Positions 131-6,677 of a DNA stretch of 6,759 nucleotides are shown in pieces; position 1 is the stretch's first letter, and every line of letters begins with the position of its first letter. The notes under the pieces were generated by a model. It was not told where the DNA came from, did not search any database, and saw nothing but the letters and a program-made list of their open reading frames with translations. A program made the translations under genes and the position numbers. The DNA is from Candidatus Eiseniibacteriota bacterium (GTDB lineage: Bacteria > Arandabacterota > Arandabacteria > JAGLYR01): NCBI GenBank assembly GCA_023132135.1, contig JAGLYR010000125.1, positions 1-6,759 of the forward strand. Reading direction: 5' to 3'.

Positions 131-2323
131 TCACCAGTCCTCGTCGCGCTCGTCCCGCCACTCGTTGCCGAAGATCTCGTCCTTCCACTCCCGGCGGGCC
201 TCTTTGACCAAGTCCAGAAGCTCCAGGGTCTCGCGGTCGGCCTTCCGGTCGCCGGCAAGGCGGTCCAGCAAATCCTCCACATCCCGGAGATGCCCGTCCC
301 TGGCCCAGTAGCTGTGGCGGAGGATCTCAGCGAACTCGGCTACGGCGCCGTCCCGCTGGAAGCTCCAGGAAGCATGCTCAAAGCGACGACGGACATCGGA
401 TCCATCGAAGCGCTCTTTGATCTCCGTCACCTTCCCGGTTTCTGGGTTCTCCCAGCGCAGGTGGACCGTAGCCAGTTTCTTCTCATCCGCGTCGTCGTGG
501 AGACGGAGCTCATACAATGCCGTCACCTTGTGGCCCGAACCTATCTCGCCGGCGTCCACCTTATCGTTGCGGAAATCCTTATCGGCCACATCCCTGTTCT
601 CGTACCCGATCAGACGATAGCGCTTGACTGCTTGGAGGTTAAATTCCACCTGGACCTTCACGTCCCGGGCAATGGTCTGCAGCGTGCCCGTGAGGTTCTC
701 GGTGAACACCCGGCGGGCCTCCTTCATGTCATCCACGTAGCAATAGTGGCCGTCGCCGTGGTCGGCCAGCTTCTCCATCAGGATATCGTTGTAGTTCCCC
801 ATTCCGAATCCGACGACCGTGAGGTAGATCCCGCGCCGGGCTGCGTTCTTCATGGTGTCCAGGATCCCTTCGGCTCCGGTGCGGCCGACATTGGCCACGC
901 CGTCCGAACAGAGAATCACCCGGTTGTTGTAGTCGCTGTCGTAGTTCCGATCCGCCATTTCGTAGCCCAGCCGGAGGCCCTGTTCGGCAAAGGTCGACCC
1001 GTGGGCGCGCAGATTCTCGATAGCATCAATGATCTCCTCCCGGTACTTGACGGATGTGGGGCGGAGAACCACCCGGCCGGTCGAGCCGTACTCAACGATC
1101 CCTACCCGGTCCCGCCGGTCCATCTCATCCAGGAGCCTTGTCAGCGCACGCTTGACCAGACCCAACCGGTCTTCCCTCTGCATGGACCCCGATGTGTCGA
1201 TCACGAACACCAGGTTCGACGGCTTCCGGTCCCTCTCGGCGACGACCCGGCCCTGGAGACCAACTCGGAACAGGACCAGATCCTCTCCGAACTCCGAGGG
1301 CGCCGCTTCCAGATGGATCGAGAAATCGCCCTTCCTCGGCGGCTCGTACTCGTGGGGGAAGAAGTTGATGAACTCCTCGACGCGTACAGCTTCCTTTGGA
1401 GGCAGATACCCGCCGTTCAGATACCCGCGGCAGACGGTGTACGAGCCGGTGTCCACATCAATCGCGAAGGTCGACAGATTGTCGTCCTCCGAGGCGATGA
1501 AGGGATTCACACCGTAGTGCTCGAAGAACATGGCGTCCACCGGCTCACCATTCGGAGGGACGACCCCGCCGTGGGCCATGCGGTGGTAGCCATTATCACC
1601 GGCGGGGGGCGGTGACATGGCCTTGGCTCCGTCGGTGCCATACATGACCTTTGAAGAACGTCCTCCGCGAACGCTAACTCCCTGGTGATGAAGACCGGCT
1701 GTCGTCGAGATGGCTTCCTCGACGGTGTCGATGGCGCGGACCTTCAGGTCCTTCTTCTCCACCTGGGCACCCCGCTCCAGTACGCTCATGTTCTTGGGTT
1801 CAGGAATGACTTCCGCCTCCGTGCCCTCCGGTTTCACCCGGGGCCTCATGACTTCCATGGGAGGCTCGGCGGGAACTTCCTCACGCACCAGATCAAGACG
1901 CCCTGCTCCGGAGGGTTCGGCCGCGGGCTCCTCGAGCGCCCTTGTACTGGTAGGCTCCCCCGCTGCGTCAATGACGTCCCGCTTCCCTTCCACCTGAACC
2001 TTGTCCAGCACAATGCCCTCGGTTCCCGCACCCTTCTCCTTCATGAGCATGGTCGTGGCGGTTGGCCCCTCCTTGGGAGCCGCCAGCTCCTTCATCGCAG
2101 GCGCTTGGACCTGAACATCCCTGGGAATAACATCCAGATCCGGTCCCCGTCCGATTACAAAGATCAGGAGCGCCGCGGCGGCCACGGCTACAGGGATCCC
2201 GATGGCCCAGACAGGCTTCCATGATCTACGGGTGCGAAATACCCGGGCACGGATTCCTCGCCAGACGTACTGTGCCTCTTTCTCGCTCAGTCGATCTCTG
2301 TGGCGCTTCAGTTCGTCCTTCAT
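131..2323 (-). CDS. Membrane-anchored VWA-domain protein (YfbK-like) with TonB-plug-like segment
   Basis: A 730-residue protein of the YfbK-like von Willebrand factor A family. Residues 1-36 form a short, basic, probably cytoplasmic tail. Residues 37-57 are one clear transmembrane helix, so the rest should be periplasmic. Residues 105-130 (LDKVQVEGKRDVIDAAG) and 193-236 (TVEEAISTTAG, then SVRGGRSSKVMYGTDG) resemble the N-terminal and plug region of TonB-dependent receptors, split by a Pro/Glu-rich linker. Residues about 270-360 match the family's conserved pre-VWA segment (STFAIDVDTGSY, LPPKEAVRVEEFINFF). The VWA fold spans about 369-545 with a complete MIDAS: D376-x-S378-x-S380, T444 and D474. 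Residues about 552-715 match the usual C-terminal domain of the family (DUF3520-type). The start at 2323 was chosen because it has a GAGGAG site 8 bases upstream; the longer open frame back to 2530 only overlaps the sigma gene. Metal-dependent protein binding is likely, and the partner is unknown. Its position directly after an ECF sigma gene suggests that it signals to, or restrains, that sigma factor. Confidence 0.9.
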   Translation of the reverse strand: MKDELKRHRDRLSEKEAQYVWRGIRARVFRTRRSWKPVWAIGIPVAVAAAALLIFVIGRGPDLDVIPRDVQVQAPAMKELAAPKEGPTATTMLMKEKGAGTEGIVLDKVQVEGKRDVIDAAGEPTSTRALEEPAAEPSGAGRLDLVREEVPAEPPMEVMRPRVKPEGTEAEVIPEPKNMSVLERGAQVEKKDLKVRAIDTVEEAISTTAGLHHQGVSVRGGRSSKVMYGTDGAKAMSPPPAGDNGYHRMAHGGVVPPNGEPVDAMFFEHYGVNPFIASEDDNLSTFAIDVDTGSYTVCRGYLNGGYLPPKEAVRVEEFINFFPHEYEPPRKGDFSIHLEAAPSEFGEDLVLFRVGLQGRVVAERDRKPSNLVFVIDTSGSMQREDRLGLVKRALTRLLDEMDRRDRVGIVEYGSTGRVVLRPTSVKYREEIIDAIENLRAHGSTFAEQGLRLGYEMADRNYDSDYNNRVILCSDGVANVGRTGAEGILDTMKNAARRGIYLTVVGFGMGNYNDILMEKLADHGDGHYCYVDDMKEARRVFTENLTGTLQTIARDVKVQVEFNLQAVKRYRLIGYENRDVADKDFRNDKVDAGEIGSGHKVTALYELRLHDDADEKKLATVHLRWENPETGKVTEIKERFDGSDVRRRFEHASWSFQRDGAVAEFAEILRHSYWARDGHLRDVEDLLDRLAGDRKADRETLELLDLVKEARREWKDEIFGNEWRDERDEDW

Positions 2324-2328
2324 CACAA

Positions 2329-2901
2329 TCACTCCTCGGCGCACAGGGCTCCGGTCCCGGAAACCCCTGGTTTCAGCAAAGCCTGCATTCTCTCCCGCGC
2401 CCTCAGGTGATGGACTCTCGCCGTCGCCTCCTTGCAACCCAGCGCTTCGCCGATCTCCGCAAAGCTGAGTTCCTGGAATTCGCGAAGCAGGAGTGCTGTT
2501 CGCTGGCGATGTGAGAGCCGCGCAAGGCATTCCTTGAGTCGCCGTCCCTCCCCCGTGAACTCTACATCGCGGGGATTGGCGACGGCGATCGCGCGGGCTT
2601 CTTCGAAGGGTACCATCCGTTTGAGCCGGGGCAGGAACCGGCGCTTCCAGTCCGTGGCCCGCCGGATGGCAATGACGGCCAGCCAGCCTTCGAGGGAGCC
2701 CTCACCGGAGAATCTGTGAATACCCTGGATCGCGTGAACGAAGGTGTCCTGCAGCACATCCATCGCCTCATCACGATTGCCAAGGTGGTAGGACAGGAGG
2801 GCGAAGAGCCGGTCCCGGGTTCGATCGTATATTTCCCGCCAGGCCTTCTCTTCCCCAGCCGCCGCGCGTCCGGCCAGTTCTCTGTCCTCAGTCGTTCCCA
2901 T
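2329..2901 (-). CDS. ECF-family RNA polymerase sigma factor
   Basis: A 190-residue sigma-70 family protein of the extracytoplasmic function (ECF) type. It directs RNA polymerase to a dedicated promoter set. Region 2 spans about residues 18-90, with DEAMDVLQDTFVHAIQ and the promoter-contacting stretch GSLEGWLAVIAIRRATDWKRR. A short linker (about 91-119) leads to region 4 at about 120-176, with LSHRQRTALLLREFQELSFAEIGEALGC and the helix-turn-helix recognition helix KEATARVHHLRARERM. The length is typical and there is no region 1, region 3 or C-terminal extension domain. The ATG at 2901 was chosen because AGGAGG lies 6 bases upstream; the GTG immediately before it is too close to that site. It is the first gene of a two-gene operon with the VWA protein, 5 bp apart. 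ECF genes are usually followed by their anti-sigma factor, so the VWA protein may play that part. The exact ECF group cannot be assigned by eye. Confidence 0.95.
   Translation of the reverse strand: MGTTEDRELAGRAAAGEEKAWREIYDRTRDRLFALLSYHLGNRDEAMDVLQDTFVHAIQGIHRFSGEGSLEGWLAVIAIRRATDWKRRFLPRLKRMVPFEEARAIAVANPRDVEFTGEGRRLKECLARLSHRQRTALLLREFQELSFAEIGEALGCKEATARVHHLRARERMQALLKPGVSGTGALCAEE
2332..2337 (-). promoter_or_regulatory. Ribosome binding site of the VWA gene inside the sigma gene's end
   Basis: On the minus strand GAGGAG lies 8 bases before the ATG at 2323. It is made of the last two glutamate codons of the sigma gene, just before its TGA stop. This decides the VWA start against the longer open frame and points to translational coupling: ribosomes ending on the sigma gene finish on top of the VWA initiation site. 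A GTG directly before the ATG is a possible alternative start but is spaced less well. Confidence 0.7.
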
Positions 2902-2907
2902 CACATT

Positions 2908-2930: not shown

Positions 2931-3197
2931 CATGGAGTCGCAAGAGGGGGCAGCGGCGTTTACATCTGCCGAGGATGTTCCGCAATCGCCTCCCACACCT
3001 ATGCCTTACGAGGTTCCCACGGCGTTGTCAAGGGTGCCGCTGCCTGCGAGTGGGCGCAAAGCAGGCCACTTGGCCAGTTGCCGGAGTCAGAATCCTTACC
3101 TTCGAGCCGACACGGTGGCCATGCCGCGGGGTCCTCAATACCATGGACAGCCCTTGCTGCCCGGATCACTTGCGGTCTTGGACTCTAACGCAGAATC
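2931..3197. promoter_or_regulatory. Divergent intergenic region with presumed promoters for both operons
   Basis: The whole gap between the sigma ATG and the sppA ATG is 310 bp, and open frames through it do not read like protein. It must hold the promoters for both operons. The best element seen is a perfect TTGACA on the minus strand at 3031-3026, pointing toward the sigma gene, but the hexamer 17 bases further on (TAAGGC, 3008-3003) is a poor -10. Two GGAAC motifs, the classic ECF -35 core, occur on the minus strand (2981-2977 and 3017-3013), neither with a convincing -10 partner. A small palindrome, GGCCA-CT-TGGCC, lies at 3064-3075. No good promoter was found for sppA. The specific sites are candidates only. 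Confidence 0.35.
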
Positions 3198-3211: not shown

Positions 3212-4945
3212 ATGAAAGGATTCTGGAACGCGTTCTTCGGAACGCTCGTGGCTGTTGTGGTCCTGGTCTTCGTGATTTCCGGCGTTGTCTACTGGAAGAT
3301 CAACGAGCAGAGCAAGATCGAGAAACACTCGTATCTGGTGATCGACCTCTATGGATCGATTCTCGAGTACACTCCCCCCGGCGACATCATGAGCAAAGTC
3401 ATGGGCGGCGAGGCGGAGACCCTTCAGCGGATCCTCGATAACCTGGAAAAAGCGAGTGTCGATGACCGTATCGAGGGCGTCATTGTCAAGATGTCGTCGA
3501 ACGTGCACGCCGGCGGAGCCATGCTGGGGGAAATGCGCGGGGCTATCAGGAAAGTCAGGGAGGCGGGGAAGAAAGTCTACGGTTTCGCAGACTCCATGAA
3601 CCGGAGCACGGTTTACCTGGCGGCGGCGTGTGATTCCGTCTTCGCGCCCAGGGATGCCTACATTGATTTCAGGGGTTTCGGGGCAACGACGACGCACGTC
3701 CGGGGAACCCTGGACAAATTGGGAATCAAGCCGAATCTCCACAAGATCAAGGACTACAAGAGTGCTGCGGAAGTTATTCTGCGAGAGGATCTGTCGCCGG
3801 AGGCGAAGGAGAACCTGGGATGGGTGCTGGATGAGGTCTGGGAGAACATGATGAGCGTACTCCGGGAGGATCGCGGGCTGAACGAGGACGATGTTCTTGC
3901 GCTCATGCGACACGCTGCCTTCACGTCGGAAGAAGCCAGGGAGGGCGGTCTCATCGATGAGGTTCTGTACTGGGATGAGCTGGAAAACCGTCTCATGCGG
4001 GAAGACGATGACGAGCTTCGCACCGTTTCGCAGGGCCGCTATGCCGACGAAGCCCGCGAGGACCTCGATCTCAAGGGAAAGAAGACGATAGCGGTTGTTC
4101 ACGCCCAGGGCTTGATCGCCGGGCGACAGAACAAGATTGATCCGCTTTTCGGGATCATGATGGGGCATGAGACCATCGTTCGAGAGCTCCGGCGGACTCT
4201 GGAGGATGAGGATGTCGCCGCCATCGTCTTCCGCGTGGACAGCGGAGGTGGGGATGCCCTGACCAGCGACCTGATTGGGCACCAGGTGGAAGTCACATCG
4301 CATGAGAAGCCTGTCGTGGTTTCCATGGTGGACGTGGCGGCTTCCGGCGGGTACCACATTGCCTATCGCGCCAGCAAGATTGTTGCCGATCCGATGACCC
4401 TGACCGGGTCCATCGGATCCATCAGCGGCAAGCTCAACATCAGGGGGTTCCACGACAAGTTGGGAATCACGCACGACTGCGTTACCAGGGGGCCCATGGC
4501 CCTGATGTGGTCGAGCTACCAGGATTTCACGGATGAAGAGCGGAAACGCTTCGAGCAGAATCACTGGGACGGCTTCAACACATGGTTGGCGGATATCGCA
4601 GATCACAGGGGAATGACCTTCGAGGAAGCGGAAAAGCTGGCTCACGGGCGCGTGTGGATGGGGACGCAGGCGAAGGCAAACGGCCTGGTCGATGAGCTGG
4701 GCGGCCTGGACAAGGCGATTGAAGTTGCGAAGCAACTGGCCGAGATCCCGGAGGACGAGAAAGTTACGATCGTGCACTACCCGGAGGAGCAGGGCTTCGT
4801 CGAGACGGTGTTGGGTGGAGGAGGGGATATGACCGCGGCCGTGCGCTATCTCATCTATCGCTTCATCCGGGATGATCTGGCGGAGACGTGGCACATGATT
4901 GGTCAGCGGAACATGTATATGATGGAACCGGTGGACATCTGGTAG
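3212..4945 (+). CDS. sppA: Signal peptide peptidase SppA, 67K type (peptidase family S49)
   Basis: A 577-residue inner-membrane serine protease with a Ser/Lys dyad that degrades signal peptides left in the membrane after secretion, and some other membrane-bound peptides. Residues about 10-28 are the N-terminal transmembrane anchor, with the catalytic part on the periplasmic side. As in the E. coli enzyme there are two tandem S49 domains: the N-terminal one (about 42-255) supplies the general base K183 in DYKSAAEVILRED, and the C-terminal one (about 290-515) supplies the nucleophile S378 in VDVAASGGYHIA. The spacing of 195 residues is close to that of K209 and S409 in E. coli. ADPMTLTGSIGSISGKLNIRG is also a family hallmark. 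An oddity is DSGGGD at 343-348, where most members have NSPGGS. The start was chosen from GGAGGG at 3198-3203, 8 bases upstream; the open frame reaching back to 2915 has no protein character. It is followed after 70 bp by a secreted dipeptidase and is probably co-transcribed with it. Confidence 0.95.
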   Translation: MKGFWNAFFGTLVAVVVLVFVISGVVYWKINEQSKIEKHSYLVIDLYGSILEYTPPGDIMSKVMGGEAETLQRILDNLEKASVDDRIEGVIVKMSSNVHAGGAMLGEMRGAIRKVREAGKKVYGFADSMNRSTVYLAAACDSVFAPRDAYIDFRGFGATTTHVRGTLDKLGIKPNLHKIKDYKSAAEVILREDLSPEAKENLGWVLDEVWENMMSVLREDRGLNEDDVLALMRHAAFTSEEAREGGLIDEVLYWDELENRLMREDDDELRTVSQGRYADEAREDLDLKGKKTIAVVHAQGLIAGRQNKIDPLFGIMMGHETIVRELRRTLEDEDVAAIVFRVDSGGGDALTSDLIGHQVEVTSHEKPVVVSMVDVAASGGYHIAYRASKIVADPMTLTGSIGSISGKLNIRGFHDKLGITHDCVTRGPMALMWSSYQDFTDEERKRFEQNHWDGFNTWLADIADHRGMTFEEAEKLAHGRVWMGTQAKANGLVDELGGLDKAIEVAKQLAEIPEDEKVTIVHYPEEQGFVETVLGGGGDMTAAVRYLIYRFIRDDLAETWHMIGQRNMYMMEPVDIW

Positions 4946-5015: not shown

Positions 5016-6677
5016 ATGCGTACGGTGAAAATCATCATTGCTGCGGGCCTGCTGGTCCTGGGGATCATCACATTTCTCGTTTTCACCACTGGTGATGATG
5101 CCGCTGCCTGCACCAACCTGATCGTGACCAAGGGTGCATCGGAGGACGGCTCGGTGATGGTCACGTATACGTGCGACGGGGAGTTCCATCCGCGTCTGCG
5201 ACTCACACCGGCGGCGGACCACGAACCGGGCGAGATGATCGAAATCGTGGATTGGGGCGGCAAGATGCGGGGGCATGTGAAGCAGGTGTCCCATACGTAC
5301 GCCGTTCTCTACAACCTGATGAACGAGCACCAGGTGGTCATTGGAGAGACGACCTTCGAGGGACGGCTGGAGCTCCAGAATCCCGACGGGGTTCTCCACT
5401 ACTGGAAGTTGATGGCGCTCACCCTTCAGAGGGCCGGGACGGCGAGGGAGGCCGTCGAGGTGATGACGGACCTGGTGGAGGAGTACGGGTACTCGAGCAC
5501 GGGGGAGATTTTTTCCATTTCCGATCCGGAAGAAGCCTGGGTTGTGGAAATGATCGGCTCCGGACCGGGAGGGAAAGGGGCGATCTGGGTGGCCCTCAGG
5601 ATCCCGGACGGCTACGTCTATGGCCACTCCAACATGTCCCGGATTCGTGAGTTTCCGACGGACGATCCCAAGAACTGCCTGTACTCCGCAAACGTGACTG
5701 CCTTGGCCATCGAGAAGGGGTACTACGATCCCGATTGCGGGGAACCGTTCCGCTTCTGCGATGCGTATTGCCCTCGGGCGGAGCAGTGGGTGCGGTACAC
5801 CGAGACCCGGACGTGGAGTATGTACCGGAGGATTGCCCCGTCGAAGGAGTGGGAATCCGGCTGGCATCGCGGCATCCAGGATGCGGAACCTTGGCCCCTC
5901 TGGGTCAAACCCGACGAGAAGTTGTCCCTCAGGGATGTCTTCGATGTGATGCGCGACCACTATGAGGGAACGGAGTACGACATGACCCAGGGTATGGATG
6001 CGGGACCCTTCGGATGTCCGTACCGCTGGCGGCCCATGATGTGGGAAAGCGATGGCGTTCAGTATTCCTGGGAGCGCCCCATCTCCACCCAGCAGACGGG
6101 GTTCTCCATGGTGACCCAGTCGAGATCCTGGCTCCCCGACCCGGTGGGCGGAGTTCTGTGGTACGGGGTTGATGATACGTACTTCACCTGCTATGTCCCG
6201 CTCTACTGCGGGATCGATGCACTTCCGGAATCCTACACACGGGGCGGCATGCAGGAGTTCTCCTGGGATTCGGCGTGGTGGGTATTCAACTTCGTGTCAA
6301 ATTACGCCTGTCTCAAGTACTCGTACATGATCGAGGACGTCCGGAAGGTGCAGGGGGAACTGGAGGGGAAAGCCATCGCTCTGCAGCCCGCCGTGGAGAA
6401 GACTGCGAAGGAGCTGGCCAGGTCGGATCCTGAGCTCATGACGCGCTACCTGACCGATTACTGCGTAAGCCACGCGGAGCGTGTGGTTGATCGATGGCGC
6501 GATCTGGGCGAGTTCCTGCTCACGAAGTACAACGACGGATATGTCAAGGACGAGAATGGGCGACCGCAGGAGGTCGGCTATCCCGAATTGTGGTTGCGCG
6601 ATGTGATCCGGTTGCGGCCGGATCGCTTCCGACTCCGGGCGGATAAAGACACCGTGGAGACGGAGTTACCGTATTAG
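5016..6677 (+). CDS. Secreted C69-family dipeptidase (PepD-like, Ntn hydrolase)
   Basis: A 553-residue member of peptidase family C69, which cleaves dipeptides using an N-terminal cysteine uncovered by processing. Residues 1-31 form a signal peptide: MRTVK, a hydrophobic core (about 6-23), then TTGDDAAA. The Ala-x-Ala before C32 fits signal peptidase I, and cleavage there would leave C32 (CTNLIVTKGASEDGSVM) as the free N-terminal nucleophile. Other family stretches are GETTFEGRLEL (110-120), LQRAGTAREAVEVMTDLVEEYGY (137-159), WVVEMIGSGPGGKGAIWVALRIPDGY (175-200), APSKEW, MPLW-like PLWVKPDEKLSLRDV (294-308), MRDHYEGTEYDMTQ (312-325), GCPYRWRP (333-340), STQQTGFSMVTQSRSWLPDPVGGVLWYGVDDT (357-388) and EFSWDSAWWVFNFVSNYA (414-431). 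The length is usual for the secreted subfamily. The ATG at 5016 has GGAGG 8 bases upstream; the upstream ATG at 4983 would put polar residues before the signal peptide. It holds 11 cysteines, several more than I expect. It probably works in the periplasm or outside the cell, following SppA or other proteases in peptide breakdown. Confidence 0.93.
   Translation: MRTVKIIIAAGLLVLGIITFLVFTTGDDAAACTNLIVTKGASEDGSVMVTYTCDGEFHPRLRLTPAADHEPGEMIEIVDWGGKMRGHVKQVSHTYAVLYNLMNEHQVVIGETTFEGRLELQNPDGVLHYWKLMALTLQRAGTAREAVEVMTDLVEEYGYSSTGEIFSISDPEEAWVVEMIGSGPGGKGAIWVALRIPDGYVYGHSNMSRIREFPTDDPKNCLYSANVTALAIEKGYYDPDCGEPFRFCDAYCPRAEQWVRYTETRTWSMYRRIAPSKEWESGWHRGIQDAEPWPLWVKPDEKLSLRDVFDVMRDHYEGTEYDMTQGMDAGPFGCPYRWRPMMWESDGVQYSWERPISTQQTGFSMVTQSRSWLPDPVGGVLWYGVDDTYFTCYVPLYCGIDALPESYTRGGMQEFSWDSAWWVFNFVSNYACLKYSYMIEDVRKVQGELEGKAIALQPAVEKTAKELARSDPELMTRYLTDYCVSHAERVVDRWRDLGEFLLTKYNDGYVKDENGRPQEVGYPELWLRDVIRLRPDRFRLRADKDTVETELPY

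Follow-up and report, generated by a model that had tools for sequence, protein, structure and literature searches.

Receptor-like domains in sigma factor regulators are already known. The FecR/PupR-type regulators (FecA-FecR-FecI and PupB-PupR-PupI) are single-pass membrane proteins that hold a piece related to the N-terminal region of the receptor (PMC7186176) and, as at the locus described here, stand next to an ECF sigma factor. In the YfbK family (PF12450/PF00092/PF12034), the E. coli member has been described as a free periplasmic protein, and IM-tethered vWA force transducers combine a membrane helix, a Pro-rich linker and a VWA domain (PMC12204202). The role of membrane-anchored YfbK proteins is obscure, and our literature search found no description of a plug in YfbK proteins or of an integrated decoy involving an anti-sigma factor.

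The locus lies in a 6,759-nucleotide stretch of a Candidatus Eiseniibacteriota genome (the window, which is the whole stretch analysed) and encodes an ECF sigma factor together with a VWA protein (Table 1). This protein shares with the YfbK family the complete core and the intact VWA metal-site residues, and with the force transducers the membrane helix, Pro-rich linker and VWA domain. It differs from the former in its membrane anchor, sigma partner and apparently receptor-derived linker, and from the latter in having a sigma partner, with no motor genes alongside the VWA gene in the window and no SHLS motif in its membrane helix, WKPVWAIGIPVAVAAAALLIFVIG.

Table 1. Features of the sigma factor–VWA operon in the window, with the evidence on which each rests
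Feature	Position	Strand	Basis
YfbK-type VWA protein, 730 aa, presumed membrane-anchored regulator of the sigma factor	131..2323	(-)	PF12450, PF00092 and PF12034 over cut-offs; ATG at 2323, stop at 131
YfbK core	194..1528	(-)	PF12450 (residues 266-350), VWA (370-539), YfbK_C (546-710)
Receptor copy: TonB-box-side stretch and N-half of plug, residues 171-242	1598..1813	(-)	tblastn matches in receptors C289 and C288 of the same genome
Second TonB-box-like stretch LDKVQVEGKRDVIDAAG, residues 106-122, unproven	1958..2008	(-)	best match at a TonB-box position, not significant
Membrane helix, about residues 38-58	2150..2212	(-)	hydrophobic run read from the sequence
ECF sigma factor, directly upstream of the VWA gene	2329..2904	(-)	TIGR02937 over cut-off; Sigma70_r2, r4_2
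Promoter-like motif GTAAACG-N16-CGAC, 32 bp before the sigma reading frame	2937..2963	(-)	common to most such sigma operons

The VWA protein and its receptor-like linker

The VWA protein consists of a short N-terminal helix, a membrane helix (placed at residues 42-56 by a low-confidence structure model), a linker of about 200 residues and a complete YfbK core, in which PF12450, VWA and PF12034 follow one another with scores of 85.7, 79.2 and 137.6 bits. The metal site (DxSxS, T, D) is intact, with D376, S378, S380, T444 and D474 invariant in five relatives. No FecR or STN domain was matched in Pfam at E values up to 1, and the match to RskA_C was weak (E 0.055). Gene order, together with the relatives, in which the N-terminal helix is conserved, suggests that the protein may act as an anti-sigma factor. 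The divergent neighbours on the plus strand encode an SppA signal peptide peptidase (S49; 3212-4945) and a C69 dipeptidase (5016-6677).

The original prediction had placed two TonB-receptor plug-like parts in this linker, with no beta-barrel behind them. The strings lie where it put them, TVEEAISTTAG at residues 200-210 and SVRGGRSSKVMYGTDG at residues 217-232 (window 1628-1675), and a profile of the N-termini of 45 receptors scored 32.3 bits against the protein, compared with at most 7.0 bits in 1000 shuffles of the same protein. In tblastn, residues 170-242 matched the receptor C289 of the same genome with 49% identity (E 6e-12), and the plug-like half matched a second receptor of that genome, C288, with 53% identity (E 8e-10). 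By this homology, residues 171-242 are the N-terminal half of a TonB-receptor plug. No barrel family was matched after the plug piece, where the YfbK core stands instead. The Pfam Plug profile (PF07715), also expected to match, stayed below its cut-off in the window fragment, which is a half plug only (14.2 bits against 23.9, E 0.063), and exceeded it in the relative L014 (27.6 bits). Of the two predicted parts, the one nearer the membrane (residues 106-122) was overstated: its best match is indeed to a TonB-box position, yet its score was equalled in 147 of 5000 shuffles, and windows from the unrelated core outscored it. On the alignment, the better TonB-box candidate is the stretch at about residues 171-187, which directly precedes the plug piece. 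The best single 17-residue window of the protein is KVRAIDTVEEAISTTAG, against KVRSIDTVEEAIATTAG in the genome's own receptor, and the TonB box of the window protein is not well preserved. The full-length structure prediction that had been proposed, made from five sequences, gave pLDDT below 50 across residues 55-292, and is thus uninformative on the fold of the copy.

Relatives were compared in another phylum (L012-L014), at L015 and in 41 genomes with YfbK members in the phylum of L015. Their common layout is a carboxypeptidase-like domain, a TonB box, a half plug, which ends after about the first half of a plug, and the YfbK core; the window protein has kept the half plug but no longer has the carboxypeptidase-like domain, and in many relatives the half plug is eroded or lost. 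Conservation of the RGGRS/DG motif among homologues, on which the prediction had been staked, was found in part of the family, the literal RGGR being kept in 17 of 33 sigma-linked relatives, with the copy eroded or lost in others. In one lineage the VWA protein combines the membrane anchor with the short helix at its N-terminus and is encoded downstream of an ECF sigma factor; in another it has a signal-peptide-like start and no adjacent sigma gene. Members of this second lineage (L182, L183, L185, L186, L188) also carry the carboxypeptidase-like domain and a half plug resembling their own receptor. In four sister genomes (L076, L078, L079, L081) the sigma factor ends in ...VIRGGRS, as in the plug motif, which is possibly a coincidence. 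Among annotated matches in plasmid records, only receptors and carboxypeptidase-like proteins were found, and no VWA protein with this N-terminus.

Repeated derivation from each genome's own receptor

With a profile built from the VWA half plugs (A1), almost all genomes yielded a single receptor, about 1030-1100 residues long (E down to 1e-32), which carries a TDDFG...DKTY-like motif behind the plug. The receptor genes are unlinked to the sigma factor–VWA operon, being on other contigs or far away. In several phyla the receptor belongs to a conserved cluster (L170, L172-L174, L176, L177, L180, L181) of, by reading of the genes, oligopeptide-transporter-like genes, the receptor, a large secreted protein with a T9SS-like tail, a PorV-like barrel and a GWxTD-like protein, followed by ExbB- and TonB-like genes.

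In 40 genomes the VWA piece was closest to the receptor of its own genome in 23 cases, with a mean rank of 3.5 of 45; the permutation p is at most 5e-5, a value that is too small because related genomes are not independent. The piece from TonB box to plug shows 63% identity to the own receptor against 32% to others, and ranks first in 71%, whereas the adjoining carboxypeptidase-like domain tracks much less (44% own-receptor identity, rank 1 in 27%), with best matches to another VWA protein averaging 53%. A tree built from 38 VWA pieces and 45 from receptors needs 19 label changes, 11 of them forced by well-supported branches. A single ancient fusion, which would place the VWA pieces in one clade, was rejected by the tree and an AU test (delta lnL 587, p 1e-55). 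These tracking and tree results come from short pieces, with some VWA branches long and a few receptors in the matrix probably wrong paralogues (those of G076 and G008, the true G076 receptor being cut by a contig end). Taken together, the comparisons indicate that the copy was derived repeatedly and follows each genome's own receptor in about 40 related genomes.

The VWA pieces sit on long branches of the tree, those of the receptors on short ones. Identical residues share a codon in 54% of cases, compared with 45% expected from codon usage, and codon identity exceeds background in only a few pairs (G059, G065, G032 and G047). As it is near background in most pairs, most copies are old yet residue-preserving, and recent gene conversion is unlikely as a general cause. 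Between sister genomes, the copy evolves faster than the core, with dN/dS mostly 0.4-1.2, near that of the remaining linker; this pattern is one of moderate constraint and turnover, rather than of strict conservation.

Macroglobulin carriers and the promoter-like motif

Profile searches for other carriers covered about 55 genomes, with receptor-length frames read in part. Besides VWA proteins and receptor-length hits, a single further family emerged, an alpha-2-macroglobulin of about 2000 residues (PF01835, PF00207 and PF17973, with PF07703 in one), with copies in four genomes (G066, G068, G080 and G058). In the first three, an RGGRS piece and a VEGAEYMVE piece stand in reversed order; in G058 they follow the order of the receptor and show AARYMVEVR, the variant found in the receptor group of that genome. 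Compared with the own receptor, the pieces scored 129-240, with shuffles reaching at most 80. The receptor pieces directly precede the PF00207 domain and would lie in the bait region, which is expected at this place. To our knowledge, which includes a limited literature, TonB-receptor pieces have not been reported in a macroglobulin bait. A fifth orthologue, in G077, has no clear receptor copy, and such a macroglobulin was missing in 35 of the 40 genomes searched. In G058, the string TFVEF is common to the VWA linker (L098) and the macroglobulin bait (L234), without a counterpart in the own receptor, and perhaps comes from a second copied target.

The motif before the sigma gene has a chance expectation of 0.01 in the window, and GTAAA-N18-CGTC occurs upstream of the sigma gene in 20 of 27 regions, compared with 3-4 in shuffles. 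Across 12 genomes the exact form GTAAACG-N16-CGWC has few occurrences each, with 14 in G009; outside G009 it is about as frequent as a reversed control, and many of the hits are therefore due to chance. Among 30 loci examined, well-placed hits before recognised genes comprised ten sigma operons, the macroglobulin in two genomes (71 bp before the gene in G066 and 41 bp in G068) and one serpin, in the window's own genome (PF00079, E 1e-119), where the motif lies 47 bp before the gene. The remaining hits, as far as resolved, fall within other reading frames or on the strand opposite them, or lack a suitably placed gene. The motif is absent before the G080 macroglobulin gene, and none was seen in the upstream stretches of receptor genes. 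The serpin loop was compared with the receptor and showed no likeness. The placement of the motif suggests that the sigma factor may regulate the serpin and macroglobulin genes.

Candidate roles of the copy and known systems

That one stretch tracks the own receptor, has arisen on many occasions and is met again in an otherwise unrelated trap for proteases points to a common recogniser of the plug start. Since receptor copies are found both in the sigma regulator and in the bait of a protease trap, the most economical reading is that a protease recognises the start of the receptor plug. We therefore propose, tentatively and with somewhat less than even confidence, that the linker of the VWA protein is an integrated decoy, a copy of the TonB-box and plug-start stretch that was kept as bait for proteolysis and would serve an ECF sigma factor, the presumed inducer of protease traps. 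The short N-terminal segment of the VWA protein would tether the sigma factor to the inner membrane; a protease acting on the periplasmic plug segment of the receptor, whether an intruder or misdirected cargo of the cell itself, would cut or bind the matching VWA segment; and the freed sigma factor would transcribe its own operon together with protease traps, presumably the serpin in the window's genome and, in some relatives, the macroglobulin with the same receptor pieces in its bait. The control of anti-sigma factors by periplasmic proteolysis is established (compare PMC11637429), and the proposed cleavage of the bait in the VWA regulator would free the sigma factor in the same way. As for the trigger, the protease PopC of Myxococcus xanthus is secreted by Oar, a TonB-dependent transporter, and its Ton system (PMC6434023), which makes a jammed exporter one possible source. 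The pattern suggests that the cell may use a dummy receptor piece to notice attack or failure at its receptor. The fuller scheme, in which the ECF/anti-sigma pair guards one outer-membrane receptor through a copy of its plug start that evolves along with it, and the cut copy calls up protease traps, some with the same bait, is possible and held with more doubt.

In favour of the decoy we count the half-plug homology, the own-receptor tracking, the rejection of one VWA clade, the outlasting of codon identity by residue identity, the macroglobulin pieces and the placement of the motif. Against it stand the erosion of the copy in many relatives, its dN/dS near the linker rate between sisters, the G077 orthologue without a clear copy, the G080 gene without the motif, the rarity of such macroglobulins, the serpin loop unlike the receptor, the chance nature of most motif hits, and the fact that proteolysis itself is predicted only.

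The copy might instead contact the receptor or a shared periplasmic partner, as in cell-surface signalling of the FecA-FecR or PupB-PupR type, and pass the state of the receptor to the sigma factor without its own cleavage as the signal. We regard this as unlikely: an ECF sigma factor with a membrane regulator bearing a receptor-like piece would fit such signalling, and direct contact would itself produce own-receptor tracking, but the operon is unlinked to the receptor gene, the sigma motif was not seen upstream of receptor genes, and the copies in macroglobulin baits would be left unexplained. It is likewise improbable that the copies have no function, and that pieces of the receptor gene repeatedly enter disordered linkers that tolerate them, only to decay there later, with the likeness to the own receptor showing merely which gene was the donor. 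The long VWA branches beside short receptor branches, the frequent erosion and the raised dN/dS between sisters would all follow from such decay; however, among the profile hits examined the copy occurs in only two non-receptor families rather than in linkers at large, in most pairs the residues have stayed alike for longer than the codons, and in two genomes the VWA and macroglobulin carriers share the sigma motif. That TonB binds the copied TonB box, with the VWA protein competing for TonB or being pulled by it and so reporting load or transport, is quite unlikely, for although the mirrored piece that tracks the receptor starts at the TonB box, and TonB- and ExbB-like genes (assigned by reading) lie downstream of the receptor gene in several genomes, the box is poorly preserved in the window protein and lost, with RGGRS retained, in many copies (G077, G084, G086, G087), and protease traps would not be predicted as targets.

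The original prediction had named a decoy, a binding module for TonB or receptor barrels, and a fusion relic as possible meanings of the plug-like part. The plug homology is real, and a decoy is supported over a plain relic by the own-receptor tracking, the repeated derivation and the recurrence in the bait region of a protease trap.

The window VWA protein is not a member of the FecR/PupR family, as it has no STN or FecR domain, its receptor gene is unlinked and no motif was seen at that gene; in place of an STN domain it holds a TonB box and half a plug, its periplasmic part is the YfbK VWA core, and the motif is carried by protease-inhibitor genes. Like bacterial alpha-2-macroglobulins (ECAM) and serpins in general, the traps found here are protease traps with a bait and candidate members of the same regulon; the four macroglobulins differ in holding TonB-receptor pieces in the predicted bait region. 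With the decoy reading, membrane-anchored YfbK proteins would gain a testable function, and a conserved receptor family is singled out for study. In plant immunity, integrated-decoy NLR sensors carry a copy of the target of an attacker. The VWA protein would resemble them in holding a target copy within a sensor, with the differences that the proteins and the kingdom are unrelated and that the attacker is hypothetical here; if the copy does serve as proteolysis bait, bacteria would be using the integrated-decoy logic known from plant immunity.
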